Origin: Ophiocordyceps camponoti-saundersi (nom. inval.)
Lineage: Eukaryota; Ascomycota; Sordariomycetes; Hypocreales; Ophiocordycipitaceae
Assembly (NCBI GenBank): GCA_003339415.1
Contig: PDHQ01000018.1
Location: 248,001 to 312,000, forward strand
DNA: 64,000 bases
Direction of reading: 5' to 3'
Program-made: the position numbers and the translations under genes
The notes under the pieces: model-generated
Databases searched by the model: none
The model's input: only the letters and a program-made list of their open reading frames with translations
Told to the model about the DNA's origin: nothing
Part shown: positions 6,609 through 33,176 of the stretch, one piece after another
Layout: each line of letters opens with the position of its first letter
Numbering within the stretch: position 1 is the stretch's first letter

Positions 6609-7597
6609 AGGACGACAACGAACAAAGACACATACAAACTGGAAGAATACACCGAGAGAGAACAAACTGCAAAGCACACAACTGGGAAGCAGGGATATCT
6701 ATTGAACAGGAAAGCCATGGAACAGCTGGTAGATGACTCTGAACACAAATAGGTAGAGCTCGACATACAAGTATGTAAATTAGCTATAGACCGAGTACAA
6801 TTAGATAGAGACAAGTGACTTTTATCCTACTCAACTGAGGAGCTCTTTTAACAAAAGCTGCGATTGTCTTCCTATTTGATACTCGGGTTGACAAGGTGAA
6901 GGCAAAGCAGTATCACGGTGACAACTCATCGAACCCTGACAAGGTGAATCACCTCATCCGATGGGAAAAGAAGAATTCGAACTAACTGCATCTCTCCTTT
7001 AGCGTTTTTAATCAGCATCTGTTGCCCTTATACACCAAGGCTGAGGCGGAAGCTATTCAAGCAACCAGGGTCCTGCTCCGATGATCGGCCCAACCCCGAG
7101 CCGCAAGAGGCTGTTTCGACGACGAGCGATGACTAACCTACTCCCACCCACCTTCCCTCCTACCTTCCCTCCTACCTACGGACTACGGGATACTGCACTG
7201 CCTTTGCAGATTCACTCAGCCGCTTCTTGACCTGGCATAGATCCATTTGGCCGTTGGTAAGCTTCCCCTCGCCCTGTCGACGCGCCTGAACATACTAAGA
7301 GAACCCAGCCAATCAGCCGGGAAACACGATGGCCAGGACCATCTCAGCCACCCCCAAGAGGCTGAGCCCCCGAGAGGCGGTTACTCCTGTTCAGCTGGCG
7401 CGGGATAAGCCTTGCGGGGAAGCTGATTGCCTCCATCCCTCGGGTCTGTCTCTATCTCTTGAGTCAGTCTGTTTGTCTATCCTGTCTTGATCCTTTGCCT
7501 GCCTACCTAGGCACTGCTCTTTCGAATACTACGTGTACTTGTCGATCGATCATCGTCTGTCTTCCTTTCAAATCGTTCTACGGATACAACGTACAAC
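6609..7597. other. Intergenic, promoter side of NLR gene
   Basis: No gene is seen in this roughly 990-nt region. It includes a short CCTACCTTCCCTC-type repeat near 7145-7175 and serves as 3' flank of the GPI protein and 5' flank of the NLR. Confidence 0.5.
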
Positions 7598-10500
7598 ATG
7601 CCGGACCTCCAGGACTACACCATTGGCTGGATTTGCGCCGTCACAGTGGAATCCGTTGCTGCTCTGGCCATGCTAGACGAAGAGCATGAACCACCAGACT
7701 CCCCTCCAGGCCACAACGACAACAACACCTACATCTTGGGGAGAATCGGCCGTCACAATATCGTCATCGCTACCCTGCCCAAGTGGGAATACGGGTTGGC
7801 TCCTGCGGCTACTGTTGCGAGGGACATGGTCCGCAGCTTTCCCAACGTCCGCATCGGACTCATGGTCGGTATTGGAGGCGGCGTGCCGAGTAAGAGGCAT
7901 GATATACGCCTTGGTGATGTCATCGTCGGCAGCCGCTCTGGTGAGAAGGGCGGCGTGTTCCAATACGACTACGGTAGAGCGACGCAGGACCGAGAAAACC
8001 CTCAGTTTATCACTACAGGGCATCTGAATCAATCGCCACAGTCGTTGTTGACGGCGGTCGGCGTACTCGAAGCGAAGCACGAGAAGAATGGCCATAGACT
8101 GAACGAGACGGCTGAAGAAGCATTGAAGAGCATTAGGAAGCGCAAGAAATACAGCCGCCTTCCATTAACCGAGGACAGACTGTTCCCATCTTCCCTGATC
8201 CATCCGCAGGATACACCTGGACAGTGCAGCAAAGTGTGCGACTTATCCTACTTGATAGAACGAGAGGAGCGTGATGAAGAGGATGATGATCCGGCAATTC
8301 ACTACGGCCTGATCGCCTCTGCCAACACTCTGATGAAGGATGCAACGATAAGAGATAAGCTGGCGGATCAACATGATATTCTCTGCTTCGAGATGGAGGC
8401 AGCGGGACTTATGAATCATTTCCCCTGCTTGGTTATCCGTGGTGTGTGCGATTACGCAGATTCCCACATCAACCAGGACTGGCAGGGATTCGCGGCGATG
8501 ATGGCGGCCGCCTATGCCAAGGATCTCCTTCTGCTGGTTCAACCATCCAAGGTGGAAGCTGAAAGGAAGATGGGTGAAGTTCTTTCAGGTTGGTCCGCTA
8601 AATTCGAGGTTACAAGTCATAAGAAGTAGATGATAATGATGCCGTTACAACGACAGATATACAAGAAAATGTTGAGGAGCTGGTCTGTCACAAGCGTAAC
8701 TCGGAGTCAGAGCGTATTCTGAGATGGCTTTCGCCGCATGAATTCTGGCGACAGCAGATTGACTTTCTCAACAGGCGTCAACCCGGCACCGGCCAATGGC
8801 TTTTGGAGACGGAAGAGTTTCGAACATGGCGAGAAAGCAAGGGGTTTACATTGCTTTGTCAAGGCATTCCAGGAGCTGGCAAAACGATCCTCGCGTCCAC
8901 GGTGGTGGATAGCCTGCAGAAACAACATCAGAAGGATCCTAGCGTTGGCATCGCGTTTGTTTATTGCAACTACAAGCGACACGATGAACAGACTGCTCTG
9001 CACTTGTTGGAGAACATGTTGAAGCAACTGACACAAGGCCTCTCCTCGATTCCCGTTAAAGTCAACTTACTTTATGAGAATCATACCAAGCATCAGTCAC
9101 GACCTTCATGTGAAGAAATCATAAGCAGTCTACGAGTCGTCGCAGGACTTTACGCTAGAGTCTATATTGTTGTTGACGCGCTCGACGAGTGTCAGACATC
9201 TGATGGCAGTCGAACAAAACTCTTGTCCTCCATCTGTAAGCTTCAGACTGCTTGTGGTATCAATTTCCTGACAACTTCAAGACACACGTCAGATGGCAGC
9301 GACTCCAAAATCTTCACAGAGAGTACATGTGCCAAGCTGGAGATATCCGCAAAGGCGGAAGATGTGCACATGTTTCTTGACGAGCGTATGCCACGACTGC
9401 CAGGATTTGTCTGCCGAAATTCAGAACTTCAAACAGAGGTTAAGGCCGGGATAGTAGGTTCTGTACGGGGAATGTAAGCTATCCGTCGATCCGTAGAGGA
9501 AGATGTGGTCTATTACTGGGAGAAGACAAGCCGCTGATGAGCATTTCTGAACAGGTTTCTCCTCGCTCAACTATATGTCGACTCGTTGATAGGCATGAAG
9601 TCAGTCAAGGCCCTGCGAACTTCTCTAGCAGAGCTTCATACTCGAACACATCCCTATAAATACGCATATGAGTCCGCCATGGAGCGGATCAACGGACAAC
9701 TTAGACATCAGCAGCAGCTTGCCAAAGACGTTCTTCTATGGGTAACTCATGCAAGAAGGCCATTGAAAAGTCGCGAACTACAGCATGCTCTGGCGGTAGA
9801 GCAGGGAGCTGCAGACATTGACGAAGATAATATATCCGACATCCAAGACATGATCTCGGTATGTGCAGGCCTGGTCACAGTTGATGAGCAGAGCAACATC
9901 ATCCGACTAGTCCATTACACGACGCAGCAGTACTTTGAGGAAACTCGGGAGAGATGGTTTCCAAACGGAGAAACTGAAATCACAAAGACATGCCTTACTT
10001 ACCTGTCATTCGATGTTTTCGAGACCTGGGATTTCGGGTCATCAGACGAAGACTACAGGTCGCGCATCATGGCGCTCAAGGAGACTTACAGCCTCTACGA
10101 ATACGCAGCTTTTAACTGGGGTGATCATTGGAAACATCTAGCTCGCGAGGCACTACCGATTTCCGAGACGATGGATTTCCTCAGAAGTAAAGCCAAGATT
10201 CAGATATCGTATGAGATTCTTCCGCCTAAGCCTAAGCCTTATTATTGGGTACCAAGGGCCCGTGAGATAACAGGGCTGCACTTGGCAGCCGTCTTGGGAC
10301 TGGAACACTTGGTAAGGTTACTGATCGACACATGTGGTGAAGACGTTGATCCGAAAGACAACTGGGATCGGACGCCACTGTTTTATGCTGTCTGGAGAGG
10401 GCATGATGGCGTCGTGGAGTTGCTGCTCAACAGCGGTAAAGTCAACGTCGACCACAGAGAGATTTGGCAAAGCCGAACAGCACTTTCATTCGCAGCCGGG

Positions 10501-12199
10501 GACGGATTTGTCACTATAGGCAAGCTGCTGCTCGATGCCGGCGCCGATCCGGACGCTGGAGATGAATGTCTACGCACGCCGCTGCATTACGCGGCGGAGA
10601 GGGAATTTGAAGGCATGGCCCACCTGCTGATAGACAGGGGCGCTGATCCAGACTCTAGAGATAAATATTTATCCACGCCGCTACACTACGCGACAAGGCA
10701 AGGATTTGAAGGCATGGCCCACCTGCTGAATAGACAGGGGCGCTGATCCAGACTTTAGTGATAAAAATATAAACGAGCCGCTATCGGGTGTAGTAAAAGA
10801 AGAACTTGAGGCGACAGTCAAGCTGCTCCTAGAGAAGGGTGCTGATCCGAACTCGAGGGATCACAAAGCTCAAACGCCGCTAGCACTTGCGGCAGCCACA
10901 GACTGTGTTGAGATCGTCAAGCTAATGTTAGCCAAGGGCGCTGATCCAGACTCAGAGGATGAAGAAGGATGGACGCCTCTAATGCGTGCAGCACGAGGAG
11001 GGAACATGGCAATAGTCGACTCACTTCTCGCAGAGACCACGATCCAGGACGAGGACGAGAGAGGTCGGTATAGACAAATAGTTTTGGCATGGTGCATGTG
11101 TCAAGACTCGTTTGAAGATGTCAGGGAGCTCCTCAAGCGGCCGGACATTAACCCCAACTTCTGGAACGATAGATATACTGATAGCACGCCATTAGTATGG
11201 GCAGCAAGAAACGTGAAGGAGCATGAATGTGCCGAGCTTTTGATGGCCAGAGATGACATTCAAATCAACTTTCAAGGCGATGACGGGGTAACGGCACTCC
11301 TGGCAGCAGTAGGATCCGGAAATGAGAAGATGACTAGGATGCTGTTGGCCAGACATGACTTGGACGTGAATCTTCAACACAAGAAGAAGGGATTCACCGC
11401 ACTCATGGCGGCAGTGGGACTTGAGCAACTGGCCATGGTCGAGCTTCTATGTACCTGCAAGAGCATCGACGTGAATCTGCAACACAAGCTGGGATTCACC
11501 GCACTCATGATAGCAGTGGCACTTAACCACCTGGCCATGGCGGAGCTTCTATGTGCCTTCAAGAGCGTCGACGTCAACCTAAAGGATTTTCAGGGAAGCA
11601 CTGCACTGAATTATGCAGCAGCATTTGGACACTCACCGATGGTTGACCTCCTGCTCGCTCGCGGTGACATCGAGTTGAACTCGGAGGATAAACATGGTCG
11701 CACGGCACTATCAAATGCAGCAATCTTCAACAGACCGGCTATCCTTCGATCTCTGCTTGCTGTAAGCGACGTCAACAAGAACACGGAGGACATCAATGGA
11801 CGGACACCGCTAGCATTGGCAGCAAGGCGAGGTCATAAAGACGCGATTAACGTCCTTCTCTCTACCACCGGTGTCGACGTCAACACAAAGGATAAAAACG
11901 ACAGAACTGCCTTGTCTCTAGCGGCCAAGCGAGGGCACAAAGACGTCGTTGAGGCTTTGATTACAGCGGCCGACATTGACTTGAACTCCAGAGACAAGCA
12001 CGGTAGAACACCGCTGTCCTGGGCAGAGAAAAAGGGGCATCAAGAGCTGGTTGAGACTCTCCTTACCGCAGGGGGCGTCGTCGGCACCGACTTGGATAAC
12101 GAGGCTGAATTGACTGACTCGTCTGAGGAGAGCGTATTAAGAATCGATTATGAATCGTTAGCTGAGGAGAGTGAGTTGTCTCCTGACGAGGCTGATTAG
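7598..12199 (+). pseudogene. PNP-NACHT-ankyrin NLR, frame broken by one extra base
   Basis: Exons 7598-8588, 8657-9473 and 9555-12199 (introns of 68 and 81 nt) join in phase. Residues 1-330 form a PNP_UDP-type nucleoside-phosphorylase fold with GIGGGVP, CFEMEAAG and RGVCDYADSH. A NACHT domain follows, with Walker A GIPGAGKT (about residue 400) and Walker B VYIVVDALDEC (about 500), then the helical FLLAQLYVDSL region. Ankyrin repeats run from about 10.26 kb to 12.1 kb. At 10729-10730 one extra A (CTGCTGAATAG, against CTGCTGATAG in the neighbouring repeat 99 nt upstream) shifts frame. It gives a stop at 10744-10746, after which the other frame stays open to 12199 with intact repeats. Ignoring that base, the product would be about 1,483 aa. 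NLRs of this type act in non-self recognition and cell death. The break may be real inactivation, an allele, or a consensus error. Confidence 0.85.
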
Positions 12200-15800: not shown

Positions 15801-18218
15801 TCATCGTGACCTCTTGTTGTTGGCTGTAGCTCGTTCAAAGACTTCCTGGAATCTGGCTTGCACGTCCTTGGTTCGAGGCCCAGGCCGTAACCCCTGCTTC
15901 GACGATCCGCCGTCGACATCATCTCGGGGATACATGTCTCGAAACTGCTTCATGTAAGCGTCCCGAAGAATCCTCCTCTTCTCAGTCCAGCCGACCGTGC
16001 TGGCAAGAATCTGAACCCATTGCGAATTCGAAGCACGTATCCACTCGCTCGTCAGAGCTATACCCTTCGAGCCCGTATCCAGACCTTGGATCAGGAAGAA
16101 AGTTCCTGGGAAAAGCTTGAATGCTAGCTTGGCTTCGGTCGGTAGCGGTGTCGAGTCGAGGATGTGCCCCTTAAGTATGTCTCCGGACCTTTCAAGCCAT
16201 GACTTGAGATGATTCTGGTCCCATGGCTTGAAGAAGTTGTCTAGCGAATCTCGTAGGTTGTCCATGAACTGCTTATCGTATTCTTCGTAGTCGGTTTCAA
16301 GTTTCGAGACCAGATTCGATGCCAGTTCCGTTGAGAGAAGCTTCTTCCTTTGGTCATATGCCTTGGTTATCTCGTCTTCACTGAACCCCAGGATTTTCTC
16401 ATCGCTTATATCGCGTGGTAGCGTATCTTTGGCGTCAACTCCGGCTTCATCATCGACATCACTGAATTGCAATTCGAAGTCTCCGTCGTCAGCAGCAGCA
16501 TGGCCAACATCATGTTTTGACCCCGTATTGGCATTCCCCGAGGCATTCGTAGTCAAGTTGGCTGCGTACAAGACGCCGGCTGCTTGTGACACCAACAAGG
16601 TAGCGTCGAGTCTCTGCATCTCCAACTCGGCCGCCAAGGTCTGCATGTATTTCGCCGATTGCAAAAAGTTCGTCACGTTGGCGAGATAGTTGTTCCAACC
16701 ACGCTGATATGTCTGATGTATCTCCTCGAAAGACGGAGGATCCGGCTTCCTAAACAAACCCTCCAGCAAACGGAATGCCATCCTGACTCCCTGTATCAGA
16801 ATAGCAATCGGCTGACCGCCCGGAGTGAAAGCCAGTACGTCGGCGGCGCTGCAGAGTATCTGATCGACGGCCGTGATAGTCTTGTCCCGGCCTGCCTCTG
16901 TATCCACCACGGCGTCCGCTACGCATCCGGCCAGAGGTATCCAGCTGATCAGAGCGGCAACACGCTCGCTGGTGCTCGACTCCCTCGAGAACGTGTCCTT
17001 GACCCCGTGAAGCACGAGGCCGAACTGTAGTCCGGCCTTTGGTCCCGGTAGCTTCCACCTGATCGGCTTGAACTTGCTCATCTTGTCGAAGCCGAATCTC
17101 TGCTTTAGTTGTCCGAGATTATTCCCGTGTGTGAGCTTCTCGAAAACAGCCTTGGCACGCAATACAGCGGCTCGTTTTCGCTGCTTCTGGGTGATTGCGA
17201 GGTTTGTACCGCAAGCTGTATCGGCTCTCTTCCGCAGCTTTGATGAAGAGCACGGATTGATCGGTCGAAAGGTCCATTTCTTGTTGTTTTTACTGACGGT
17301 TCCCAAGGATCCAAAGTCTCCGTCTATCGTTTGAACCCAAACATCACCTACATGTATCGATCAAGAGCCGGTTACTGACGATCTGTACGTGTTCATAAAC
17401 GGACCATCGTACCTTCAACTTGAAGCCGATATACCATCGTCCTCTGGTTGATACGACGTGATTCTCCGCTCTGTACAGCCTTCACGATCTCGTTTCTGGT
17501 GATGTCGGCCTTTCCCTGTGTTGGGTTCGGTATCGAAACTGGAACGCTGCCGCGTAACTTGGAAAGGGCTTCTGTATCGTCTAGTTTCATCAACGGTTCG
17601 AAATCATTCACGTGTTTCCCATTTTTGATCAGATCATCGAAATGGTATTCATAGAGAGCGTTTCCATCCTTTATCTTAGTTGCTATTACGAACAGGTTCT
17701 TCTGCCCTGCTTTGCTGGAGTCGATGCGCATAACTTCGGCGTCGGTTGGATGCCGCAGTATGGCAACTGGTTTCTCGATGACGGGTCTCCCCTCTTGTAA
17801 TACGGCTCTTCCGTTCTCTGTTTTGACGGCACAGATGAGGCGGAATGTTCCACGGGAAGACACGCCTGTGTGCGACTGATCAGGATCCAGCGTGGAAGGA
17901 ATAGGATAGAAGCTACAGAACAGACATACTGTCTTGTACCAGCAGATCGTATTCCATCAGTTGCCCGCTCTGATAACCAACGAATATTCTTCCATCTACA
18001 AGAGGGCTATTCCGGTACAGCTTAGGAGTCTGCTTCTTGATCTGTTCTGATATCCAAGCTCGCGACTTCTCGACGTTGCCGAGCTGCAAGAAAGGTGGCA
18101 TTCGAGATAAGCCTGTGAATCCTGGCTCATCGACCTTGGCTTGCGAGAAGGCCGAGAGAGCAACGAGGCAGAAGAGGAGAAGGGCTTGCTTGAGTGCCGA
18201 GTTCATATTGGAGAACAT
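15801..18218 (-). CDS. Large secreted protein with enterotoxin A-like features, probably non-catalytic
   Basis: Three exons (18218-17930, 17865-17413, 17347-15801; introns of 64 and 65 nt, phases consistent) give 762 aa. The N-terminus is a signal peptide (ALLLFCLVALSAFSQA). Residues about 100-250 contain LFVIATKI and a later EALSKLRGSVPVSI. These resemble a degenerate fold of the heat-labile-enterotoxin-type ADP-ribosyltransferases abundant in insect-pathogenic fungi, but I see no Arg, STS or Glu active-site signature. Residues about 350-420 carry hydrophobic helices (SWIPLAGCVADAVVD, AADVLAFTPGGQPIA) like the C-terminal module I recall downstream of the catalytic domain in fungal family members. 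A charged helical tail follows. The gene structure is solid; the family assignment is inference. It could equally be an unrelated pore- or partner-binding secreted protein. Confidence 0.7.
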
Positions 18219-19994: not shown

Positions 19995-22073
19995 ATGCCC
20001 AAACGCTTCGCCCTCCTCGTCGGAATCGACCTCTACTATAACAACGGCTTCAGAGAACACGATGGTGAAAAGCAGGAACTCGACAACCTCAAAGGCTGCG
20101 TCAACGACGTCAACGCCGTCAAGAGCTTCATAGAAAGGAACTTTCACTTTGACGAGATATCCGTCTTGACATCTCCGTTACCGGACTCTGGAAACACGGG
20201 AGATGCAGCGAAAGACCACGACTCTGTACTGCAAAAGACATGGACAACCATCTCATCCTGGATCCCTGGCCTGGATCACACTAAACAACGTCCACCGCTG
20301 GATAACCACCATCTACCGACCTTCTACAACATCAGACGACACTTCGACACCATCTGTCGAAAAGCCACTGCCGGCGACTTCTTCTTCTTCCACTTCTCAG
20401 GCCACGGCGCGCCGCTGCCACGGGTTAGGAAATCGCCCGGGTCACGATCTCTCGATCCCTCGCTGCTGACCGTTGCCTACTGCTGCGGCGAGCCGGCGAT
20501 TCGAGGATGGCAGCTTAACGAGTGGCTCGAGAGATTCAACCGCAAGGACGTCCGCGTCGTCGTCTCCCTCGATAGCTGCTATTCCGGCGGCGCCTGGAGG
20601 AAGAGGAGAACGGACAAGCTGTATCGCTCTCCGTATAAATGGCCTCATCTTCCGAACCTGCCTGTCGACGAAGAGGTTGCCGACGAGGAGGAGTTGACGA
20701 TCACGAATTCGGCTCTAAGAGCTGCCAGGCTGCAGGATTCCTGGTCTATCAACCCCAAGGACTTCACCTTGATGACGGCCTGCGGCTCGGACGAGGTGGC
20801 GGCTGAGGTCGTCCTCGATGATGGAAAGTCGTACGGCGCTTTTACCCGCGAGCTTCTCAACTGTCTAGACGGACGGAAAAAAGACGGAAGGGAAAACGGG
20901 ATTTCGCACCTTACCTACCGCATTATAGGGAATCAGTTGACGAGTAAGATTCAGAGCCAGACGCCGGCTGTCTTTGGCCGTGATAGGCTGCTTTTCTTCG
21001 GCGACTCCGAGCCGTTTTCTCTTCTGCCTTTTGTGGTGAAGATAGAGGACGATCGGGCTTTGCTGCCTGTCGGTGAAGCTCATGGGGTTCATGAGGGAGC
21101 CGAGTTTGTGCCTTATTCGTTGACGCGGCCTCTTCCTCCTGCTATGACCGTCAACCGCGTTTCACAATTCCATTGCAGTGCCGGTATCGTCGATGAATAT
21201 GCGCACATTCTCGAGAGGTTTGACCGGATAGTTATCCCTTCACGATGGAGTTTCGGAGAAGAGCCTATAAAGGTTTATATCGATCCTGCTTTGAATGGAG
21301 AATTTCGCTCTTTGTTAGAAGAGTCTCTCCACAGATATATCACGAGTCCTGTCGAGATCATCGATGACGATGCGGAAGAGTCAGACGTCAGCAGATGGAG
21401 ACTGAAGCATACTGAAGATCGCGTCGAAATCTTCGGTTCCGAACGAGTCGTTGGATACATCGGCCCCGTCGAGCCTCTGAAACTTGAAATCAGCTCTGAG
21501 AAAGCCGCAGCAGAAACAGCTGCCATTCTTCACCATCTCTTCCGCTTCGAACAGGTTTTCAATCTCGGACCGAGGATGTGCTCGACTCTATCTGTCGAAG
21601 TAGACTTGAAGCCGGTTGGCATACCGACCAAAGCGAACAACTCAACCTGTTACGCAGCAGATCAGAAGTTCAGACTGACCTTTAGCAACAACACGCAAAA
21701 CGCCCTCTTCATCTCCGTCCTCGTCCTAGGTCCTGAATTCAACATCCAGCAGGTTTTCCCTCCGGAGGAGAAACCGTTTCGTGTTTTCAGCCGGAACAAG
21801 CACTGGATAGAGTTCGAAATGAGCATCCCGAAAGATTATCCCCGATGGGCTTCCGGGCATAGACGCCGTCGCCGTCGGGATATTATTCGTACTATCGTTA
21901 CCGAGCAAGGAGGGATTTCGTGGAGGAGTCTTGAGTTGCCGCATGTTTGGAATGCGAGTCAGATTGTTAAGGATCCTCGAGATTATAAGAAATCGTCGTT
22001 GAGGGACGTGCAGGTTTTCACTCAGAAAGATTACTGGGTTTACGATAGGGAAGTGGTGACAGTTTCCGAGTGA
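19995..22073 (+). CDS. Caspase-fold (peptidase C14) protein with C-terminal beta-rich domain
   Basis: A single exon encodes 692 aa. The N-terminal 300 residues are a C14 caspase/metacaspase-like domain. It starts FALLVGIDLYYNNG and has the catalytic His in HFSGHG (H137) and the catalytic Cys in SLDSCYSGG (C195), followed by LMTACGSDEVA and GAFTRELL. The acidic residue before Cys supports the basic-residue specificity typical of metacaspases. After a linker, residues about 500-690 form a beta-rich region (RLTFSNNTQNALFISVLVL, then IQQVFPP), similar in pattern to the DUF4384-like domains that follow caspase domains in fungi and bacteria. There is no prodomain, NACHT or death-fold adaptor, so activation must come from a partner. 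It lies 66 nt, tail to tail, from the TPR-CHAT gene. Expected role: executor protease in regulated death or immunity (inference). Confidence 0.88.
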   Translation: MPKRFALLVGIDLYYNNGFREHDGEKQELDNLKGCVNDVNAVKSFIERNFHFDEISVLTSPLPDSGNTGDAAKDHDSVLQKTWTTISSWIPGLDHTKQRPPLDNHHLPTFYNIRRHFDTICRKATAGDFFFFHFSGHGAPLPRVRKSPGSRSLDPSLLTVAYCCGEPAIRGWQLNEWLERFNRKDVRVVVSLDSCYSGGAWRKRRTDKLYRSPYKWPHLPNLPVDEEVADEEELTITNSALRAARLQDSWSINPKDFTLMTACGSDEVAAEVVLDDGKSYGAFTRELLNCLDGRKKDGRENGISHLTYRIIGNQLTSKIQSQTPAVFGRDRLLFFGDSEPFSLLPFVVKIEDDRALLPVGEAHGVHEGAEFVPYSLTRPLPPAMTVNRVSQFHCSAGIVDEYAHILERFDRIVIPSRWSFGEEPIKVYIDPALNGEFRSLLEESLHRYITSPVEIIDDDAEESDVSRWRLKHTEDRVEIFGSERVVGYIGPVEPLKLEISSEKAAAETAAILHHLFRFEQVFNLGPRMCSTLSVEVDLKPVGIPTKANNSTCYAADQKFRLTFSNNTQNALFISVLVLGPEFNIQQVFPPEEKPFRVFSRNKHWIEFEMSIPKDYPRWASGHRRRRRRDIIRTIVTEQGGISWRSLELPHVWNASQIVKDPRDYKKSSLRDVQVFTQKDYWVYDREVVTVSE

Positions 22074-22139
22074 CAGCTTCAAGTATTGGACAGGCATCAA
22101 GTTCAAAACAACAGTGGACTAGTTACTGTTTCTCAGCTT

Positions 22140-25100
22140 CTAAACCCCAAAGTGAACGTACGGAACCCAATATGGGTTCATAGCGCTCTGCATCTCCGTC
22201 TTAGATCCCACAAGGGTAACATCTCTCGCCTCTGCTCTCTTCCTCGCCTCTTCTCCCTTCTTCATCTCTTCATCCCGCAACTCCCGGACAGCAAAATGAA
22301 GTCCTCGACAGACAGCAACGTCCGTCATGCCTTCATCTCGCAGCGTTCTGTAAAGAACCCTCGCGACATCAACGCAAAACTCATCCGATACCTCCCATAG
22401 AGTTCCGATGACGTGGCGGAAACCAGCTAGCTGGAAGGAATTGATGAGATGGATTCCCTCGTCGATAAGCTTGCCCGTGTCGTTCGCTCCGGTGGAACAG
22501 GCTGAGAGAAAGCCGAGGAAGGGTGGGCTTCCCTGCAGCCTGTGATCTCGAATGTCGCCTACAGTCAGTGGCTTTGCTTTCCAGTCTTCGAGGAGAAGAC
22601 AGCTGAGAGAAGGTTCCTTCGAGTTCGCTTTGCCGTGACCGGCGAAGTGGAAGATTGTGCATGACTTGAGGAGTTCGAGGACATCGTCTCTCCGTAGTTT
22701 AGGCATGATTGGTTGTAGGTTTAGAGATGGACAAAAGTCTTTTACCATCTTCAGCTCGTCCGCGGCAAAGGAGAGGATCCCGTCTCCAGCCAGATCCGGT
22801 GTTTCACGCATGGCAACTAGGAGGGCATGTGAATCAGAAGACGGCGGTTTGACGTCCTGTCGGCGTCCGAATATCAACGACTTCACCGATGACGCGTACG
22901 AAGACATGACCCTATCGAGAACAGTCTCCGAGCTCCCCTTTGTGTGGTATCCCGCTGCATGAAGGGGCAACTGGCTCAAAGGACCGGTAGGAATCCACCA
23001 CACGCGCGGTAAGTGTCCATCCGGAGGCGGACCTTTGAAACCGAGCTCGTCCAGACAAGGACGAGCAACCACGTCCCAGAGCCATTCCAGCAAGGGGGAG
23101 ATGTCGAAGAAAGCCCTCAAGCGAGAGGACTGCAGATGGCGGGCTCGAGTCTCGGCTTCTGTCAGTGTCATGTCCGGAAGGTTCAGTACCCTGATTTGAT
23201 GGTGCTCTATGAGAAAGGCATCGCAGCGGAATCTGCTCAAGTTGATGACTATGATGGGATCTGGATTCGCCGCTGCCTTCAGAGACTCTGCTGTAGGCGG
23301 GAGTAGGAAGTTGTTGAACCCAGGCTGGTTGCGAATCTCGGTGATGAGTTGGTTTAGTCTTTGATCGGCTTCACGACGTCGTTTCGCGCTCGACTCTAAC
23401 GAAGCTATCGTGTTTCCAGGGCTCATCAAAGACGGGAGAGTCTCCTCTGGCTTGTCAAGCTCGTCTCGAAGGGTTATGAATTTATCAGCTAAAGCAGGAT
23501 GCTTCTCCCTAACGTCTGACATGTCCCCTCGTATGTCCATCAACAGGCTAGCGATGATGCCACGACCAAGTTCGAGAAGTTGCAGAGCACGTATCACGTC
23601 TCCGTTCGCGTTGAGAATCGTCGAGGCCGCGAGTGAAGCGACGCCGAAAAAGCCTCCAAGCGCATGCTCCTTGTCCGTGTGTTTCAACGATCTCGGGCTG
23701 ACGGTTGAGAGAAGCGTGACGGCTTCCTCGGATAGCTGACTTGACTCTTTCCACTTCGCCTGCGAGCCGTAGACCTCAGCCGCGTCGGAGGCCAGCCATG
23801 TGCGGATCCTCGGACTGGCGGCTTCGCAACGGAGTCCTTCCAGGTAACACGATAGAGCGCGGTCTCGGTCATCTGGTGAGCGAATCAAGTCGAAGCGTCT
23901 GATGAGCCAATCTCCAATGTTGTAGAGACGAACTGCTCGGTTGGGATGTTGGCGAGGGCTGGCGTCTATTGCCTCGCTGGTTCTGTCGATGGCACGACTG
24001 AGGTCTTCCCTCGATCCGCTTTGCGTGTATCGTCGGCCGAAGTGCATCCCGAGGTTGTTGAGATAACTGGCTCTCGTGGGATTGTTCTCAGGACAGGCAT
24101 CGATAGCCCCAGTGGTGTATTCGATAGCACGGTCAATATCCTCCGTCAACTCGGTCTCCAGAAATCGGTCGTTGAAGAACTGTCCGAGGTTACTCAAGAT
24201 GATCGGTCTTTTGGGATGGTCTCGGGAACAGGCATCTTCAGCTATAGTCAAGCTTTCGATAGCACTGTTGAGGTCCTTCAACGACTTGGTTCGCCCGTAT
24301 AGCATGCCGAGACCAATTCCCCGAGCAATCAGATACGTGATTCGATGGGGATTCTCATGGCTGACGTCTCCAGCCATATTCATGACTTCAATGGCACGGT
24401 TAAGGTCGTCCATTGAACCCACGCGTAGAGAGCGGCGTTGAAGACAGGTTCCGAGATTCGATAGATGAAGAACTCGGTCAGAGTGATGTCGATGTCCGAC
24501 CTCAACGGACAGAGTGATGAGGTCAATGGCACGATCGAGATCAACCATGGAAGCGGTCTGGTCGTATCGTCTTCCCAGACAGTTGCCGAGATTGTTTAGG
24601 TGCTTTGCTCGATTCGTGATGTCTTCATCAGCTGCTTCAACAGCCATCTCAGCAGCCTTGGTAGCACTGTCAATGTCCTCTATCAAGCCCGTTTCATCAA
24701 ACCGCCTCTCGAACCTCGAAGCAAGGATATCGAGTCTGCCGGCTCTCAATGGGTCGGTATGAGGCGTCGCGTCAACTGTCATAGTCGCATCGTTAATGGA
24801 ACGAGTCAAGTCGTCGACTACTTTAGTCTTTTCGAACCGCTCAGAGAGCCAGTATCCGCGACTGTATAAACGAAGCGGTCTATCTGGGTGATCGAGAGGC
24901 ATCGCGTTCAAAACCGCCGTCACAATGTCGATAGCGCCGGTAAGATCTTGTATCGAGCCTACTCGCTCGAATCGTTTACCGAGCCAGAAAGCCAAGACAT
25001 GTAGGCAATCCGTTCGCCTAACAAAGTTACTGGGCATCGAACAGACAGCCATGGCTGCGAAATTGACGGCATTGTTGAGGTCATCTATCGAGTCTGTTTG

Positions 25101-25670
25101 ATCGGATAGCTTGCCGAGCTCGTTTGCCAAGTTGCTTATCATGTTGGGCTACAGTAGATGTTTAGTAGAGGTTGTTGTCGTTACGTTGTTGTCAACCGAC
25201 GAGTCTTACCCGAGTTCTCATCTCTTGCTTCCATTGAGTGCTCATTTCACCGGATATCCGTAGTCTATGGATGCAAGGCATGACATTGTAAACAGATCAC
25301 GTTCCTTGGGTATCGAGGGTTCTAGAGATGCAACTTACCTTACTCCAGTTGACGACGCCTCAGATGTATCGCGTCCCATCCAAAACGACATCAACTGGAG
25401 AATATGGCTTCGTCGTCTATAATCGGCGTGATCTGTAGCCGTTGCCGCGACCCATGCTTTCGAGCAGTCAAAGGCAAGTTTGAGGAAGTCGTTGGGATTC
25501 GACTCCCCTCTCTTGAAGACGAGGAAGCACATATAGATATACAGCTCCTTTTGGTCATCTGCTGCATCATCTTGACACAGCTGTATCAGGCGGCGCAGTT
25601 TATCATCGTCTTGGTGGTTTAGCAGGGTGATTAACTTGTCATCGACCCAGAAGAGGTCCGTCTCGTCCAT
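22140..25670 (-). CDS. TPR-CHAT protein (caspase-superfamily protease with about 10 TPR-like repeats)
   Basis: Three exons (25670-25339, 25264-25210, 25148-22140; introns of 74 and 61 nt, phases consistent) give 1,131 aa. After an N-terminal helical segment come about ten tandem TPR-like repeats (about residues 130-620), each with a DL(N/D)RAI-type helix, spaced roughly 47-50 residues. The C-terminal third is a CHAT domain with the catalytic His in FHFAGHG (about 963) and the catalytic Cys in LSACSTG (about 1012), then AGFRHVIGTLWEVSD, a hallmark of the family. CHAT domains are caspase relatives; in bacteria TPR-CHAT proteases act as effectors in CRISPR-linked and other immune systems. It is convergent with the C14 gene and divergent from the NLR at 26365. 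Function here is inferred. The small middle exon of 55 nt is the least certain part. Confidence 0.88.
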
Positions 25671-26364
25671 GAAGGAGGATTTGAAGCCTGTGGATTAGAA
25701 GAGTTCTGTCCTCAGTCTCACATATGGATGCATCCCGTGTTTCTTTGAGATCATCTGAATACCCACACGATATGGCTGCTCTACCCAACGTCTATGGCCA
25801 CCCCCCCGCCCGTAACGCCTCTTCCTGATTCGCGTCTGATCCAAGCCCGCTTACCTTGCCGCCGCGGTGCCGCAAATCAGGATACGCCATTCGCTGTGTC
25901 GTAAGCCATGCATGTTTCTCAAGGCTGAGCTGGGACCGGAGGCGGAGCTTCAGTCGCAAATCACAGCCCCCTGTCTCTGTTGCCTTGTATCGGCCTTTCT
26001 CACTGCCCTCTCCCCTCGTATCTCTCACCATGATCGATGAGGCGGAGCGGCAAATACCTCTGTTTGCAAGGAAAATAGGCGCGGCACCAAGTATTTCCAG
26101 TTCCCTGAGGAAAGTGGTGTGCAGCACCCAGTCGTTCTTGCTTACAAGTTATCGGTCACGTCACTGTGGCTGAGTGTCGACGGCGATCCCAGCTCGTCCT
26201 TCCTTCCGTCCCCCTCACACCCCCAATCTGTCTGCCAAACGAGATCTGACAACACGCACGAACACACAAACCCTCGCTCGCTTGATCCTAAGTCTAACGA
26301 ATTGTCTTTGCATATAGTCGGCCTCGAAGCAAAGAGTCCAAGGTCGTTCTCGCTAACAAGGAAG
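25671..26364. promoter_or_regulatory. Divergent intergenic promoter between TPR-CHAT and NLR genes
   Basis: These 694 nt separate the two start codons and hold no gene I can support, so both promoters must lie here. A C-tract of seven or more bases sits near 25800. The NLR frame is open upstream of 26365, but the Met at 26365 followed by a basic, then acidic stretch is the best start. Confidence 0.5.
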
Positions 26365-29300
26365 ATGAACAAGAGACGATTCCATCGTGACGACAACGAC
26401 GACGACGACGACGAAGACGAAGACGAAGACGAAGACGAAGACGAAGACGTCGAGTCTGGCCTATCTCAGCCCCCAAAACGACCAAAGACCCTCTACTACG
26501 ACCCAGCAGTCACGCTCCCATCGCTGCCCAGAGACCAATACACCATCGCCTGGATATGTGCCCTTCATATCGAGCTGGCAGCAGCTCGCTGCATGATGGA
26601 CGTCTTCCACGAACCCTTACCTATGGAACAAGGGCATAACGTCGACACCAACTCCTACGTCTTGGGAAGTATCAAGGAGCACAACATCGTCATGGCCTGC
26701 TTGCCTGCTGCCCAGTACGGTACGAATAACGCTGCCATAGTTGCTACTCATCTTCAGCGGACCTTTCCATCAATTCGTCTGGCCTTAATGGTCGGCATCG
26801 GAGGCGGCGTTCCAAGTATGGAAGATGTGCGCTTGGGTGACGTCGTCGTCGGCTTGAGGGTGATGCAATATGATATGGGCAAGATTATCGAGAACGGGAA
26901 GCTACAGAGGACTGAGACGTGGAGACATCCAAGACCGTCACTCCTAACAGCTGTTTCGAGCTTGCGATCAAAACACGAGTGCCAGCCCAGTCGTATCCCC
27001 ATCATACTCCGAGAGAAGCTGAAAACACAGCCTGAATTCCTTCGTCCAAGCCTACCAGACCATCTCTTCTGTGCCTCGTATTGTCATCAGTCGTCGACTC
27101 CAAGCTGTGACGACTGCGACCTGGACAAGTTAGTTCCGCGAAGAACCCGCGCATCTGACGACCCCGAAATTTATTATGGCGGTATTGCTTCGTCCAATCA
27201 AGTAATGAGAAGTGCCACTTATCGGGATACCTTGGCTCAGCATCTTAACGTCAAATGTTTCGAGATGGAGGCTGCTGGGCTGATGGATATCCTTCATTGT
27301 CTCCCTATCCGGGGCGTATGCGACTACTCTGATTCTCATAAGAGCAAGGAATGGCAGAAATATGCAGCAGCGACAGCCGCGGCATACGCAAGAGAACTCA
27401 TCGAGATGTTGCCCCGGCCTCATTCGCAGATACAGTCTGCTCAGTTACCCATCTCTGGTAAGATGTGTCTACACTCTACAATAACCAAGAAATTGCATTT
27501 GTAGCTTCAGCGTTTCTGACATGCTTACAGAAGCAGACCAACATCCATCCCTGGCCCGTCGACAGCTGCTGCTCGACTCTCTCCGTTTCGAGCAAATGGA
27601 TTCCCGTAAACTGAATATTAAAAACGCACACAAGAGGACTTGTCAATGGTTTCTCAAACACCCAGACTACCTCGACTGGCTAAATCACGACCGACTTGCG
27701 ACGCACCATGGCTTTCTCTGGATCCGTGGCAAACCCGGAGCTGGCAAGTCGACATTGATGAAATTTGTTTACTCTCACCTCAAAGTCAGGACTCGCCATC
27801 AACTTAAAGCCTCTTTCTTCTTCAACGCTCGGGGAGATGATCTGGAGAAGTCGATTTCCGGAATGTATCGCTCGCTACTACTTCAGCTGCTCGAAGGCTT
27901 TCCCGATCTTCAGGCAGTTTTTGATGACCCTGAGCTTGTTTCCCGAGATCAGAGCGACTGCCCTTCATTGCATGTACTCAAGAATCTCCTCAGCAGCGCC
28001 TTGTCTAAGCTCGGCGATCGGTCGTTTACGTGCTTCGTCGATGCCCTGGACGAGTGTGACGAACAGCACGTCATGGACATGATCCAGTACTTTGAAGAGG
28101 TAGCAGAGGATTCCGCGGAGAACGGAATAGCCCTCCGTATCTGTTTCTCCAGTCGACATTATCCGTACATCAACATACGAAAAGGCGCTCAACTGGTACT
28201 GGAGGACCAAGAAGACCATGCCGCGGATTTAGACAAGTACGTCAGGACTCGGCTTGACATCAAGGGTGGTGCAGTTGCCGAAGAACTGCGGTCACAAATC
28301 GTCGAGAAAGCTGCCGGAGTGTTTCTTTGGGTTGCCTTAGTTGTGGATATCCTCAACAAGGAACAACGACGGGGCGGCCTAGCTTTAAAGAAGAGGCTGA
28401 AGGAAGTCCCAAGCGACTTGAGCGAGCTTTTCAAGGAGATCTTGACGCGTGACAACCAGAATATGGAGCATTTGCTGCTCTGCATCCTCTGGATTCTCTT
28501 GACAAAACAACCGCTGAAGCCTGACGAGTACTACCACGCTCTCTGGTCTGGGTTGTCTCTGCAGGGCCTGGCTGACGCCGAGATACCGGATGCTACACCC
28601 TCCGTCCTTACCAGTTGTGTCGTCAGCTCGTCCAAAGGGCTTGCAGAGATTACAAAGTCCAAGCAACCGACTGTGCAGTTTATTCACGAATCCGTCCGCG
28701 ACTTTCTCATCAAAGACAAGGGTATTCAGGAGCTATGGCCTGATGTCGGATTTGACTGGGAGAGCCCTGGTCACGAGAAGCTCAAAGATTGCTGCATGAC
28801 GTACATGAAGCATCCCTCAATACATGCGTCTATCAACCAGCCGCAGTCTACATGTGCCGAAGTCTCGATAAATTATCCATTTTTACAATATGCCAGCCAG
28901 CGTATTCTCTTCCATGCTGATGCGGCGGCGCTTGCCATTTCTCAGGATAACTTTCTCAGGCAATTTCCCCTATCTGAATGGGTCTCATTGCTGAACTTCT
29001 TTGAGAAGTACAAGGTTCGACGATACGGTCCGGATGCTAGCCTTCTCTACATTCTGGCAGACAAAGGTCTTCCCAGGCTGATCCGCACGCGCCTCAGGCA
29101 AGGTATAAGACACAACGTTAAAGGGGGGAGATACGTCTATCCGTTCTTTGCTGCTCTAAACAGCGGTTGCAAAGACGCTGTCGCCGCCATTTTGGACATA
29201 CCAAGTTGCTTTCACAATGGGGTAGACATTGCCGACTGCCCACGGCACAGAAGAAAACAAGCCTTCAAGCGTCGGACGCCTTTGTCGTGGGCAGCCGAAG

Positions 29301-31039
29301 ACGGTCGTGCTGAGCTCGTCGACCTGCTCCTTCGAAAGGGACAGCTGGTTAATGAAATGGATGAGGGCAGGTGCACGCCACTTATGCGAGCCCTGGACGG
29401 ATTCGGTATTATGGAAGGAAACCACGATGCGACCATACACATTCTCATCGACGAGGGAGCAGACGTCGACATCATCTGCAGAGACACTTACGAGAGAGTG
29501 CTACAAATTGCCTCGTCCAACGGCAATATAGCCATCGCAAAGCTTACTCTGGAAAGGGGGACAGACGTCAATGCTTACGATAAAATAAGAGGAGAGACGG
29601 CGCTGATGGCTGCCTCATCGCACGGCTTCACAGCAATGGCAAAGCTTCTTCTGGAAAAGAGGGCAAAATCTAATGCCCGCGATTTCCGTGGGAGGACAGC
29701 GCTCCATTTTGCCTTGGAACACTCTGGACAGGAAGCAGAGAAGCCCGAGGCCCATGAGAAGAGGGACCACGCCCATGACTTCGACTGTAAGACTTTGGTG
29801 GAGCTTCTCATCGATAATGGGGCCGATATCAACGTTTCCGATCAGTCTTCTTCAACGCCGCTTCATCTGGCCTGCGGAAAAGGTCAAGAGGCGATAGCAA
29901 GGCTCCTCATCGAAAGAGGTGCAGGCGTCGACGCCCAAGACGAAGGCGATCAAACACCGCTTCATCTAGCCTTAAGAAATGGCCACGAAGCAATAGCAAT
30001 GCTCCTTATCGGAAAAGGTGCAGGCGTCTACGCCTATAACAAATATAATCAAACACCGCTTCACCTTGCTGCATCAATTGGTTCTGTGGCGGTAGGAAGG
30101 CTTTTTATCGGAAAAGGTGCAAGCGTTAACGCCTACGGCGAAGACGATCAAACACCGCTTCATCTAGCCATAGGAAATGGCCACGAAGCAATAGCAAGGC
30201 TCCTCATCGAAAGAGGTGCAGACGTCAAAGCTAACCGCAAAGATAATGAAACACCGCTCCACCTTGCCTGCAGAAAAGGTCACGAGGCGATGGTAAGGCT
30301 TCTTATCGAAAGAGAGGCGGATGTCAATGCCTGTGCCCGCTTTGGCTGGACACCAATTCATCTAGCCTCGATGGCAGGTCATGAAGCGGTGGTGAAGCTA
30401 CTTACCGAGAAAGGGGCAGATCAAAATACCCCTGACTATTCAGGCTGCATGCCAATTCATTATGCCTCGAAAAGGGGTCACAAGGAGGTATTGAGATTAC
30501 TCATCGAAAAGGGGGTAGATATAAATACCAATAATGCCTCTTGCCGGACGCCACTTCACGAAGCCTCAAGCGCAGGTCATGCGGGAGTGGTACAGCTTCT
30601 TCTTGACAATGGAGCATTTCTAGATGTCTGCGATTTGAATGATAAGACACCACTTCATGAAGCCTCAAAATTCGATCACGAGGAGGTGGCGAGACTTCTT
30701 ATCGAAAGGGGATCAGATATCAACGCCTCTGATATTGACAACTGTACGCCGCTACATGAAGCCTCGATAAAGGGTCACGAAGCGGTGGTAAAGCTTCTCG
30801 TTGACAAGGGGGCAGACGTTAATGCAAAGCGAGGCGTAAATGGAGACTCACCATTGTGTGTGGCGATATCGCATGGTCGCGAGGCGATAGCCAGGCTTCT
30901 TATTGACCATGGAGCTGAAGTTGACAATTTCGTGGATCGCGATGGCAGGACACTGCGGCAGTTGGCCTCGGAGAAAGGTCTTGACGCGTTGGCAAAGTTT
31001 CTCTCTGACCGTGAAGCCGGCACGGGCCCTAGTGGTTGA
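26365..31039 (+). CDS. PNP-NACHT-ankyrin NLR, intact, with acidic N-terminal extension
   Basis: Two exons (26365-27457 and 27531-31039; 73-nt phase-1 intron) give 1,533 aa. Residues 1-45 carry a basic start, a run of about 20 Asp/Glu and a nuclear-signal-like PPKRPK. Residues about 55-350 form a PNP_UDP nucleoside-phosphorylase-like domain with GIGGGVP (144-150), CFEMEAAG (298-305) and RGVCDYSDSH. NACHT follows with Walker A GKPGAGKS (431-438) and Walker B FTCFVDALDEC (about 530). From about residue 940 to the end there are about 17 ankyrin repeats, some nearly identical at DNA level. Fungal NLRs with this order are thought to sense non-self through the repeats and signal through the N-terminal domain. 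Its closest neighbour is TPR-CHAT, divergent across 694 nt. All key motifs look intact. Confidence 0.92.
29948..30238 (+). repeat. Near-identical ankyrin repeat units, 198 nt apart
   Basis: The segment beginning GATCAAACACCGCTTCATC at 29948 recurs at 30146 with few differences over at least 70 nt. The offset of 198 nt equals two 99-nt ankyrin units, which implies recent duplication or gene conversion within the sensor array. Confidence 0.85.
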
Positions 31040-31415: not shown

Positions 31416-33176
31416 TTAGAAGAATCCGAAGGCTTTTGACTTGAGATCGCTAAGGAGATCGCCTCCTCTGGACGAGTCGCTCTCCCTGGATGAGTTGTCC
31501 TCACCAGACGGGCTGTCATAGCTAGACGAGCTGGTGGGGGTGGGAGAAGAGGTGGGAGAAGAGGTGGGATAGGGACTCGGCGAGGGGCTGGGAGAAGGGC
31601 TGGGCTCGGGGGTAAAATAGGGGTCGGGAGAGGGCGCGGGAGAGCTGTCCTCCTCACACTTCTCGGCCAGAAGCTGTTCGTTGACCCTGCCCTTCCGGTT
31701 CAGCCTCTCGCCGTTGGGACCGGTGATGTCGAGGTTCAGGTAGCCGGCGCCCTGGGAGTTGGCCCAGATGACGAGGATGGGGTAATACTTCCCCTTCTCG
31801 ATGGTCCTCTGCACGCTCTGCGGCCTCCTATTGACGTAGTTTGTCTGGAAGATGTCGGCGTTATCGCGAGTCGGCTTGCTGACCTTTTCGTCGCCGAACC
31901 ACATAAAGGCGACGTCGTCCGTCTGTCGGGAGGTGAAGTTGTACGTGCCGCCGGTGCAGGCGTAGAGGAACGTACGGAACTCTATGGCGGCGTTGTCGTG
32001 CGTCCTGTTGGCGTAGTCGCTTTCGACGTAGATGTCGTTGACGATGCCGCCGTCGAGGAAGTCGCCTGCCTTCTTCTTCCGCTCGAACACGTCCATGTCG
32101 AAGTTGCGGTAGTTGGAGCTCGTGTCGCCGCTGAACGGGTTCTCGAATCGGGTGAATTTGATGCCGCGGCTGCCGCAGACTTCCTTGCCGCACACCTTCA
32201 CGCTGGGTTTCGGCTTGGGGGGCATGGAGGATGAGCTTGGGCTGTAGGTGGGCGTGGAAGATGAGGTTGGAGTGGAGGACGAGGTTGGCTCGTAGGTTGA
32301 CGTCGGGGTGGAGGATGAAGTCGGTTCCGGCACGGGGTAGGAAGAGCTCGTCTTCTCAGTCGGTTCAGCCGTGATGGGCTTCGACGAAGACTCGCTGCTC
32401 TGAGCAGGGGTGTTCTTCGGGGGCTCCTCACGCGGCAGAGAAGGGCAGTTGCAAGGCCTGCAAGCCGGCCGCGGTCTGAAATCGTGGCCCCTGAAGTCGT
32501 GGTGGTCCTCAATGTCGCGGAGGATGGCGTGGATCTGGGCCAGTTTGCGGTGGCACAGCTGCGGACTTCCCCTGAAGTCGAAGGTTGCGTGGCCGCTGTA
32601 GCCGAAGTCCGGGTTCCAGCCGGGGAAGTGCTCCATTCCCTGGCCGGTCTGCTTCTCGGCTCCGGTCTGCTGCTGGGCGTTGGTCTGCTTCAGGGCCCCG
32701 GCCTGTTTCTGAGACTCGGTCTGCTGCTGGGCCTTGGTCTGCCTCTCGGCGCCGGTCTGTCTCTCGGCGCCGGTCTGCCTCTCGGCCCCGGTCTGCCTCT
32801 CGGCCCCAGCCTGCCGCTGAGCCTTGACCTGCTGCTTGGTCCCGACCTGATTCTCGGCCATGGCCTGCTGCTGAGCCTTGGCCTGCCTCTGGTTGTCGAC
32901 CTGCTGCTGAGCCTCGGTTTCCTGCTGAGCCACCGTCTCCTGCTCAGAACCGGCCTGTTGCTGAGCGTCAGTCTGCTGCTGAGAACCGGCCTGCTGCTGA
33001 GCCCAGCCTTGCTGCTGAGCCCAGGCTTGCTGCTGAGAGTCTGCCTGCTGTTGAGCGTCGGCCTGTTGCTGGGCTCCAATCTCCGAAGCTGATCCCTGGC
33101 TGCCTGCCATGTCCTGGGCGGACAGGGCGAGGGCGTTGCCTACCAGGAAGGCAACGGCGGCGACTTTGAACATCAT
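31416..33176 (-). CDS. GLEYA-domain adhesin-like secreted protein with Gln-rich hexapeptide array
   Basis: A single exon encodes 586 aa. The signal peptide is FKVAAVAFLVGNALALS. Residues 35-178 are 24 tandem hexapeptides of type (A/S)QQQ(A/T)x, with four identical AERQTG-type units in the middle. A Cys-containing segment (PACRPCNCPS) and a Ser/Thr/Pro stalk follow. Residues about 330-495 look like a GLEYA/PA14-type lectin domain, with KFTRFENPF, a YNFTSRQTDDVAFMWFGD core and GAGYLNLDITGPNG. The tail is Pro/Ser-rich and ends LLSDLKSKAFGFF with no GPI signal, so it may be released or wall-trapped. GLEYA domains in yeast adhesins bind glycans through calcium. A minus-strand TATAAAA at 33277-33283 lies about 100 nt upstream of the start. 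Probable role: attachment to a host or substrate. Confidence 0.85.
   Translation of the reverse strand: MMFKVAAVAFLVGNALALSAQDMAGSQGSASEIGAQQQADAQQQADSQQQAWAQQQGWAQQQAGSQQQTDAQQQAGSEQETVAQQETEAQQQVDNQRQAKAQQQAMAENQVGTKQQVKAQRQAGAERQTGAERQTGAERQTGAERQTKAQQQTESQKQAGALKQTNAQQQTGAEKQTGQGMEHFPGWNPDFGYSGHATFDFRGSPQLCHRKLAQIHAILRDIEDHHDFRGHDFRPRPACRPCNCPSLPREEPPKNTPAQSSESSSKPITAEPTEKTSSSYPVPEPTSSSTPTSTYEPTSSSTPTSSSTPTYSPSSSSMPPKPKPSVKVCGKEVCGSRGIKFTRFENPFSGDTSSNYRNFDMDVFERKKKAGDFLDGGIVNDIYVESDYANRTHDNAAIEFRTFLYACTGGTYNFTSRQTDDVAFMWFGDEKVSKPTRDNADIFQTNYVNRRPQSVQRTIEKGKYYPILVIWANSQGAGYLNLDITGPNGERLNRKGRVNEQLLAEKCEEDSSPAPSPDPYFTPEPSPSPSPSPSPYPTSSPTSSPTPTSSSSYDSPSGEDNSSRESDSSRGGDLLSDLKSKAFGFF

Follow-up and report, generated by a model that had tools for sequence, protein, structure and literature searches.

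Recurrent pairing of C14 and CHAT protease genes in Ophiocordyceps camponoti-saundersi suggests an old two-protease module

In the zombie-ant fungus Ophiocordyceps camponoti-saundersi, a gene for a C14 caspase-family protease stands end to end with a gene for a TPR-CHAT protease. Related pairs, present at another site of the genome, as a natural fusion in one protein, and in some bacteria, suggest that the two proteases form an old module, which probably serves immunity or cell death. We estimate a probability of about one half that the two genes at the heart of the locus form an ancient unit of two proteases, with the TPR-CHAT protein as the sensor that then activates the C14 protease; the neighbouring NLR gene may be incidental and is more likely an immune gene of its own in a stretch rich in such genes. 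The basis of this reading is observed, namely the domains, the intact dyads, the recurrent pairing, the fusion and the bacterial adjacency; protease contact, cleavage, the direction of activation, the substrate and the immune role are parts of the model that we infer.

CHAT proteases, NLRs and gasdermins are known to take part in fungal cell death, and in the parts of the literature on this subject at hand no discussion of fungal C14 proteins of the present kind was found. A recurrent C14-CHAT pair gives both proteins a concrete, testable partner and ties fungal immunity to bacterial protease genes. Such a pair would also make the origin of caspase cascades open to experiment.

The focal locus and its gene products

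The window, that is, the whole stretch of 64,000 nucleotides of O. camponoti-saundersi DNA that was analysed, contains at 19995-31039 a block of about 11 kb in which the genes for the C14 protease, the TPR-CHAT protease and a PNP-NACHT-ankyrin NLR are all intact (Table 1). The original prediction had placed here a C14 protein with HFSGHG and DSCYSGG, a CHAT protein with FHFAGHG and LSACSTG, a convergent arrangement of their genes with 66 nt between stops, and an intact NLR gene divergent from the CHAT gene across 694 nt. All of this was borne out by the domain matches, the motifs and the coordinates, the 694 nt lying between ATGs 25670 and 26365.

Table 1. Features of the window, with positions counted from its first nucleotide; the C14 alignment has 61 rows and the CHAT alignment 25, each including the window's own protein.
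Feature	Positions	Strand	Remarks
Second PNP-NACHT-ankyrin NLR	7511-12196	+	several open frames (introns or lesions)
C14 caspase-family gene, 692 aa	19995-22073	+	single open frame; ATG 19995, stop 22073
Predicted catalytic His137 of C14	20403-20405	+	kept in at least 90% of 61 aligned rows
Predicted catalytic Cys195 of C14	20577-20579	+	61/61 rows; D193-S194-C195 invariant
Spacer, 66 nt	22074-22139		between convergent stop codons of C14 and TPR-CHAT
TPR-CHAT main exon	22140-25148	-	CHAT domain at about 22146-23096
CHAT Cys882 codon (in LSACSTG)	22497-22499	-	invariant in 25 aligned rows
CHAT His836 codon (in FHFAGHG)	22635-22637	-	invariant in 25 aligned rows
TPR-CHAT probable 5' coding exon	25344-25670	-	ATG 25670; similar N-terminus in P0119
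NLR exon 1	26365-27457	+	PNP_UDP_1 domain
NLR exon 2	27531-31039	+	NPHP3_N/NACHT (about 27638-28156) and ankyrin repeats
DUF6594 gene or remnant	50662-51488	+	hydrophobic C-terminal segments

The C14 protein matches PF00656 (E 9.7e-14, residues 3-296), and its caspase domain (residues 1-338) is followed by a C-terminal region of about 350 residues. An Asp two residues before the catalytic Cys is a metacaspase-like trait, and cleavage after Arg or Lys and calcium dependence are further traits of that class. The C14 protein has this Asp together with a caspase fold and a His-Cys dyad, and a structure comparison limited to residues 1-338 gave metacaspases and GSU0716 as the best matches; the predicted model has a pLDDT of 78.7 overall, with poorly ordered loops after the catalytic Cys. 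While the fold and the dyad are shared with metacaspases and orthocaspases, the protein differs from them in its C-terminal region, which is common to bacterial caspase-family proteins with DUF4384, and solved metacaspases match it over the caspase part only. Similarity to the bacterial C14-DUF4384 family extends over the full length (probability 100, 555 columns); in the C14 protein, Pfam gave no match to the DUF4384 model. In the tree, fungal C14 rows are split from bacterial rows with support of 100/99.

The TPR-CHAT protein combines a TPR array (TPR_10, E 9.4e-9) with a CHAT domain bearing a His-Cys dyad (PF12770, E 7.8e-29, residues 683-999 of 1000 aa counted from ATG 25142), and Pfam found TPR and CHAT only, with no SAVED domain. 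The 5' exon is supported because the N-terminus of P0119, a protein of O. camponoti-leonardi, is similar to it; the intron placed between the exons (25149-25343) is one of several possible. A sequence search of solved structures with the CHAT protein matched none, and its database copy (P0107, CP533_5334) is partial.

Joined across a 73-nt GT-AG intron, the two NLR exons give a protein of 1533 aa with no inner stop. It has the architecture of a fungal NLR in one reading frame after the predicted intron, with an N-terminal effector domain (PNP_UDP_1, 4.4e-9), a NACHT-type NTPase (NPHP3_N, 1.3e-34; the NACHT model stayed below its cut-off, 21.2 vs 26.7 bits) and C-terminal repeats (ankyrins, 1.2e-112).

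Recurrence of the pair in the genome

The genome contains four C14 loci and eight CHAT loci, and each of the two unsplit C14 genes has a CHAT gene no more than 6 kb away; under random placement, in a model that ignores hot spots, two or more such pairs have a P of about 3e-5. As judged from the gene order of this one fungal genome, the neighbourhood of C14 and CHAT genes is more than chance. No C14 match lies near the remaining six of the eight CHAT loci. The second pair, on C722, has another sequence and another orientation and stands without an NLR. A recent segmental duplication behind the two pairs was rejected on the grounds of 25-33% identity, unlike orientation and different CHAT clades.

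Bacterial relatives

The bacterial survey covered 80 of 336 relatives of the C14 protein. A CHAT gene lay within 500 nt of the C14 relative at 18 of these loci; the other 62, some of them with short flanks, had none within this distance. Among 12 gammaproteobacteria, CHAT stood directly downstream of C14 in seven, and the other five lacked it. The survey included C14 and CHAT neighbours on the same strand with a 3-nt spacing between frames. Because CHAT genes so often adjoin bacterial C14 relatives, the likeness to bacterial protease-based defence that had been drawn for the focal locus fits. In the analysis of CHAT distances (29 ORFs, with L064 added), densities are biased towards the nearest bin, which is never without a following gene. 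An iterated CHAT profile drifted into C14 itself and was discarded together with its matches and bins.

In the gammaproteobacterial CHAT partners checked, CHAT occupies the N-terminal half and Pfam found no TPR, so the architecture is not uniform throughout. Tentatively, and somewhat short of even odds, C14 and CHAT may constitute a proteolytic cascade of two steps that predates the fungi by far, which would have been an operon-like bacterial unit, entered or persisted in fungi, become fused once or more, and worked independently of NLRs. Such a cascade would correspond in fungi to the initiator and executioner caspases.

Comparison with known systems and proposed mechanism

SAVED-CHAT is said to act on a caspase-type protease. 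Its CHAT protease confers immunity via a cascade of proteolysis, according to the accessible part of PMC11229360, and the SAVED-CHAT cascade of type III-B CRISPR is the subject of Steens et al. 2024, a title cited in the available part of PMC11417357. For the three gammaproteobacterial CHAT partners tested, the best PADLOC model was SAVED_CHAT (1.1e-19, 8.2e-19 and 2.9e-4), and for two of the three the best NCBIfam model was HetF, far below its cut-off. The focal system, in contrast, is fungal, carries TPR repeats, showed no SAVED domain, and gave no PADLOC match for its CHAT.

In Craspase (type III-E CRISPR), the TPR-CHAT protein Csx29 is inactive until its RNA-guided partner signals, and once activated it cleaves a protein from its own locus (PMC10028731, in the part at hand). 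The fungal CHAT region is picked up by the NCBIfam csx29 model (4.2e-9), but the score of 35.8 bits does not reach the cut-off of 300, and the substrate proposed here is another protease. Most fungal gasdermin genes stand in clusters with protease genes, and in P. anserina a gasdermin is activated by a CHAT protease that bears TPRs (available parts of PMC12881547 and PMC10197012); this gasdermin is the only fungal TPR-CHAT substrate met in the accessible literature and is not a C14 (PMC12881547). These two-gene clusters likewise bring together cell-death genes, some with TPR-CHAT, whereas the neighbour at the focal locus is a second protease. A largely open-access literature search found no C14-CHAT pair in fungi in the text it reached; the accessible part of one paper with 'CHAT domain', 'peptidase C14' and 'fungal' has these terms in separate passages, and CHAT is absent from the main text of the survey PMC3501461.

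In the proposed mechanism, the TPR array would most likely hold the CHAT protein in check as long as no ligand or partner is bound. Once released, CHAT would cleave and switch on C14, probably in the loops after the catalytic Cys, and activated C14 would cleave after Arg or Lys, leading to cell death or another immune output.

Neighbouring genes as sensors or executors

The locus had been read as a module of a sensor with possible executors. One part of this stands, as two proteases of different caspase-superfamily branches look coupled through the recurring pair, the fusion and the bacterial adjacency; the NLR, however, is set aside as their sensor because of the genome-wide counts. An NLR lies within 6 kb of only one of the eight CHAT loci (random-placement P about 0.05, borderline; 25 NLR loci were used, a rounding of 29 NPHP3_N genome matches) and none at C722, where no NACHT, NPHP3_N or NB-ARC match was obtained and the ORFs scanned around the pair contained no NLR family. 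In the genome search for NB-ARC, two matches were obtained on C266, each of them weak, and none elsewhere.

We regard as improbable a three-gene immunity block in which the PNP-NACHT-ankyrin NLR acts as sensor and activator of both proteases, even though the compact, intact block speaks for it, as do the NACHT-type-TPR-CHAT fusions P0111 and P0113, the Cladobotryum protein P0003, in which C14 is linked with a partial PNP domain, and the C14-nSTAND1 (L056 and L057, two bacteria) and CHAT-nSTAND1 (L091, one bacterium) genes that adjoin bacterial C14 genes. In A. fumigatus, moreover, hetB (CHAT) and a PNP_UDP/NB-ARC gene, of the same protein classes as the focal CHAT and NLR, act in heterokaryon incompatibility, but the accessible text treats them as separate het genes and mentions no C14 partner (PMC11138114). 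Besides the counts given above, the NLR has a PNP effector domain of its own, and NLR clusters are common in Sordariales (PMC12258605, in the part available) and are seen in this genome as three pairs within 40 kb.

Very unlikely, in our assessment, is control by the proteases of a third gene, such as a fungal gasdermin or a DUF6594 membrane protein, that executes death. The gasdermin-protease clusters and the P. anserina activation are in its favour, together with a DUF6594 gene that separates CHAT from C14 at C722 and, of two other DUF6594 loci, one that lies about 20 kb past the focal NLR and 25 kb away from CHAT. Against it, some frames of the DUF6594 matches contain stops at both loci (introns or decay), and a literature search on DUF6594 found no paper. 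Gasdermin is absent among the 25 of 37 families listed for 126 ORFs of the window, and PF04598 gave no match in the genome, a weak test, as the same model matched no control genome either.

Fusion proteins and mixed architectures

In P0227 (1975 aa), C14 is fused to TPR-CHAT in one protein; this is a single Logan protein with two member sequences on a 9,015-nt contig, taken as fungal from its position in the C14 tree. Of six long C14 proteins examined within the fungal family, only one contains CHAT. The two proteases might instead be independent effector domains that can stand in for one another, recombine with TPR, PNP and other sensors, and owe their co-location to the gathering of immunity genes, a reading that we consider rather unlikely. 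Such exchange would accord with C14 joined to TPR without CHAT in P0025, to part of PNP in P0003, and to a lectin and a metalloprotease-like stretch in P0228, and with partner CHATs from several clades, those of the focal pair, the C722 pair and the P0227 fusion not forming one clade (p-AU 4e-10); the second NLR, about 8 kb upstream of C14, is also close by. The bacterial same-strand neighbours at 3-nt spacing and the full C14-TPR-CHAT fusion, however, exceed regional gathering, and the two-protease unit is the reading that we prefer. Among the 120 of 722 CHAT matches listed, and too weak for adjacency, is one further observation: P0075 (C14) and P0193 (CHAT) are each on a contig of 229,713 nt.

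Organization of the Locus

The assembly scanned (45.7 Mb, 733 contigs) contains the window at G000:C99:248001-312000, where, as the original prediction had it, genes for a caspase-family protease (C14), a TPR-CHAT protease, and an intact NLR lie side by side, separated by 66 nt (C14-CHAT) and 694 nt (CHAT-NLR). The product of the CHAT gene is 100% identical to the partial protein CP533_5334 from Ophiocordyceps camponoti-saundersi; a likely 5′ exon of the gene starts at 25670, with a predicted product similar to the N-terminus of P0119, the O. camponoti-leonardi homologue. The database proteins matching the window C14 do not include its own copy, and this gene therefore seems to be unannotated in the public record. 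The NLR is a complete receptor with a PNP domain of its own.

Features of the window and of the second C14-CHAT pair on contig C722
Feature	Sequence	Coordinates	Strand	Details
C14	window	19995-22073	+	single open frame, 692 aa; PF00656 at residues 3-296
TPR-CHAT	window	22140-25670	-	convergent to C14; 1000 aa without the likely 5′ exon, CHAT at residues 683-999 of these; TPR_10 9.4e-9
Focal NLR	window	26365-27457 + 27531-31039	+	1533 aa; PNP, NPHP3_N/NACHT, ankyrins
Second PNP-NACHT-ankyrin NLR	window	7511-12196	+	several frames, from introns or lesions; about 8 kb upstream of C14
Open frame	window	15804-17360	-	519 aa; hydrophobic stretch
Open frame	window	17396-17956	-	187 aa
Q/A-rich long-repeat gene	window	31416-33176	-	by NLR 3′ end
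DUF6594	window	50662-51488	+	about 20 kb past focal NLR
CHAT	C722	300568-303576	-	
DUF6594	G000:C722	304292-305162	-	between CHAT and C14
C14	C722	306323-308305	+	

Recurrence of the Protease Pair in the Genome and in One Fusion

What the locus shows is best described as a C14-CHAT protease pair that recurs, one more form of the protease-based immunity modules already known. Six PF00656 matches in the genome correspond to four loci (C722, the window, C199, and C659), of which those on contigs C199 and C659, each matched in two pieces, are probably ordinary metacaspases; PF12770 marks eight CHAT loci. Under uniform random placement, which takes no account of hot spots, the probability that at least two of the four C14 loci lie within 6 kb of one of the eight CHAT loci is 3e-5, and that at least one does so is 0.0085. 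The window and C722 pairs are old, because their C14s share 25% identity over 385 aa, the C722 CHAT (32.7% identical to the focal one) is the most distant among seven paralogues, and the gene arrangement differs. The DUF6594 gene has only three matched loci in this genome; the window and C722 copies bear hydrophobic C-terminal segments, and the protein is a candidate membrane executor.

Among 13 proteins found in a fusion search restricted to about 990-3155 aa, six belong to the fungal C14 family. P0227 is a 1975-aa protein that contains C14 and its tail as well as TPR and CHAT, and P0025 carries TPRs that share 61% identity across 231 aa with the repeats of P0193, a TPR-CHAT protein. P0003 includes part of a PNP domain, its N-terminus being 33% identical to the window PNP domain over 268 positions, and may be either a true fusion or two merged gene models. 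P0228 (Trichoderma velutinum) adds two H-type lectin domains and a matrixin/astacin-like metalloprotease stretch that scores under cut-off; Pfam gives C14 alone for P0230 and no match for P0229. A single clade uniting the window, C722, and P0227 CHATs was rejected (p-AU 4e-10), so C14 is linked with CHATs of different lineages. Two further proteins, P0111 and P0113, combine TPR-CHAT with NPHP3_N. Literature searches turned up no description of a C14-CHAT pair in fungi.

Bacterial Relatives

Bacterial loci were scanned using aligned members from bacteria and fungi, with the bacterial P0105 as reference; of 336 relatives found, 80 loci were kept. At 18 of the 80, the C14 ORF has CHAT no more than 500 nt away, in 19 ORFs altogether, 18 of them on the same strand and all 19 confirmed by the Pfam CHAT model; 11 further CHAT ORFs lie farther away, out to 7 kb. 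TPR models scored above cut-off in eight of the 18 loci (L106, L111, L112, L116, L118, L121, L122, and L130), which thus have the fungal-type architecture. The best matches to P0105 come from 12 gammaproteobacterial genomes; CHAT is present in 11 of them (18 matches altogether) and lies directly downstream of C14 in seven, with frames overlapping or 3 nt apart. All six of these partners that were scanned have the CHAT domain in the N-terminal half, and Pfam found no TPR in them. PADLOC labeled all four C14s tested 'caspase' and gave 'SAVED_CHAT' as the best model for three gammaproteobacterial CHATs; all NCBIfam matches fell below the cut-offs of that library.

Proposed Function

Since the two genes adjoin each other in distantly related lineages and are joined within a single protein, C14 and CHAT very probably share a pathway. 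The SAVED-CHAT cascade proceeds through a caspase-type protease. Immunity conferred by SAVED-CHAT works through cascading proteolysis (PMC11229360), and Csx29, a TPR-CHAT protease, is turned on by a partner and then cuts a protein encoded alongside (PMC10028731). A gasdermin is the protein switched on by a TPR-CHAT protease of fungal origin (PMC12881547). These cases, together with the sensor-like repeats belonging to the CHAT protein, suggest that TPR-CHAT would act upstream and C14 downstream. CHAT may cut C14 in the low-confidence loops past C195 (197-206 and 237-254 in the predicted structure); as the gasdermin case shows, a fungal CHAT can have a different substrate. An allorecognition role is plausible, because the incompatibility genes of A. 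fumigatus include one encoding CHAT and another encoding PNP_UDP/NB-ARC (PMC11138114).

Place of the NLR

The original prediction read the three genes as sensor and possible executors, a reading supported in part. The protease pair recurs on C722, where genome profile searches gave no NACHT, NPHP3_N, or NB-ARC match, and 53 ORFs over 20 kb there included no NLR family, in a scan that omitted the CHAT frame spanning both stretches. Under uniform random placement, the probability that a CHAT locus has any of 25 NLR loci no farther than 6 kb away is 0.051. PNP-bearing NLRs are frequent in fungi (PMC10197012), and across 37 Sordariales genomes clusters account for 26% of 2349 NLRs (PMC12258605); three pairs among the 29 NLR-type loci compared here lie within 40 kb. 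We provisionally treat the NLR as a neighbor of the protease pair. Bacterial STAND neighbors leave room for an NLR/STAND-linked reading: at two loci the gene ahead of C14 encodes C14-nSTAND1-WD40 (L056:2792-6754 and L057:1911-6329), and the CHAT neighbor at a third is CHAT-nSTAND1 (L091:10285-14349). At all three, a STAND protease gene adjoins a second protease gene.

The PNP part of the second NLR in the window is 44% identical to that of the focal one. Pfam gave no match for the 519-aa and 187-aa frames adjoining the block. In a bulk scan, one of 126 window ORFs matched PF01375 (heat-labile enterotoxin alpha chain; 2.6e-14), and a GLEYA match may belong to the Q/A-rich gene.
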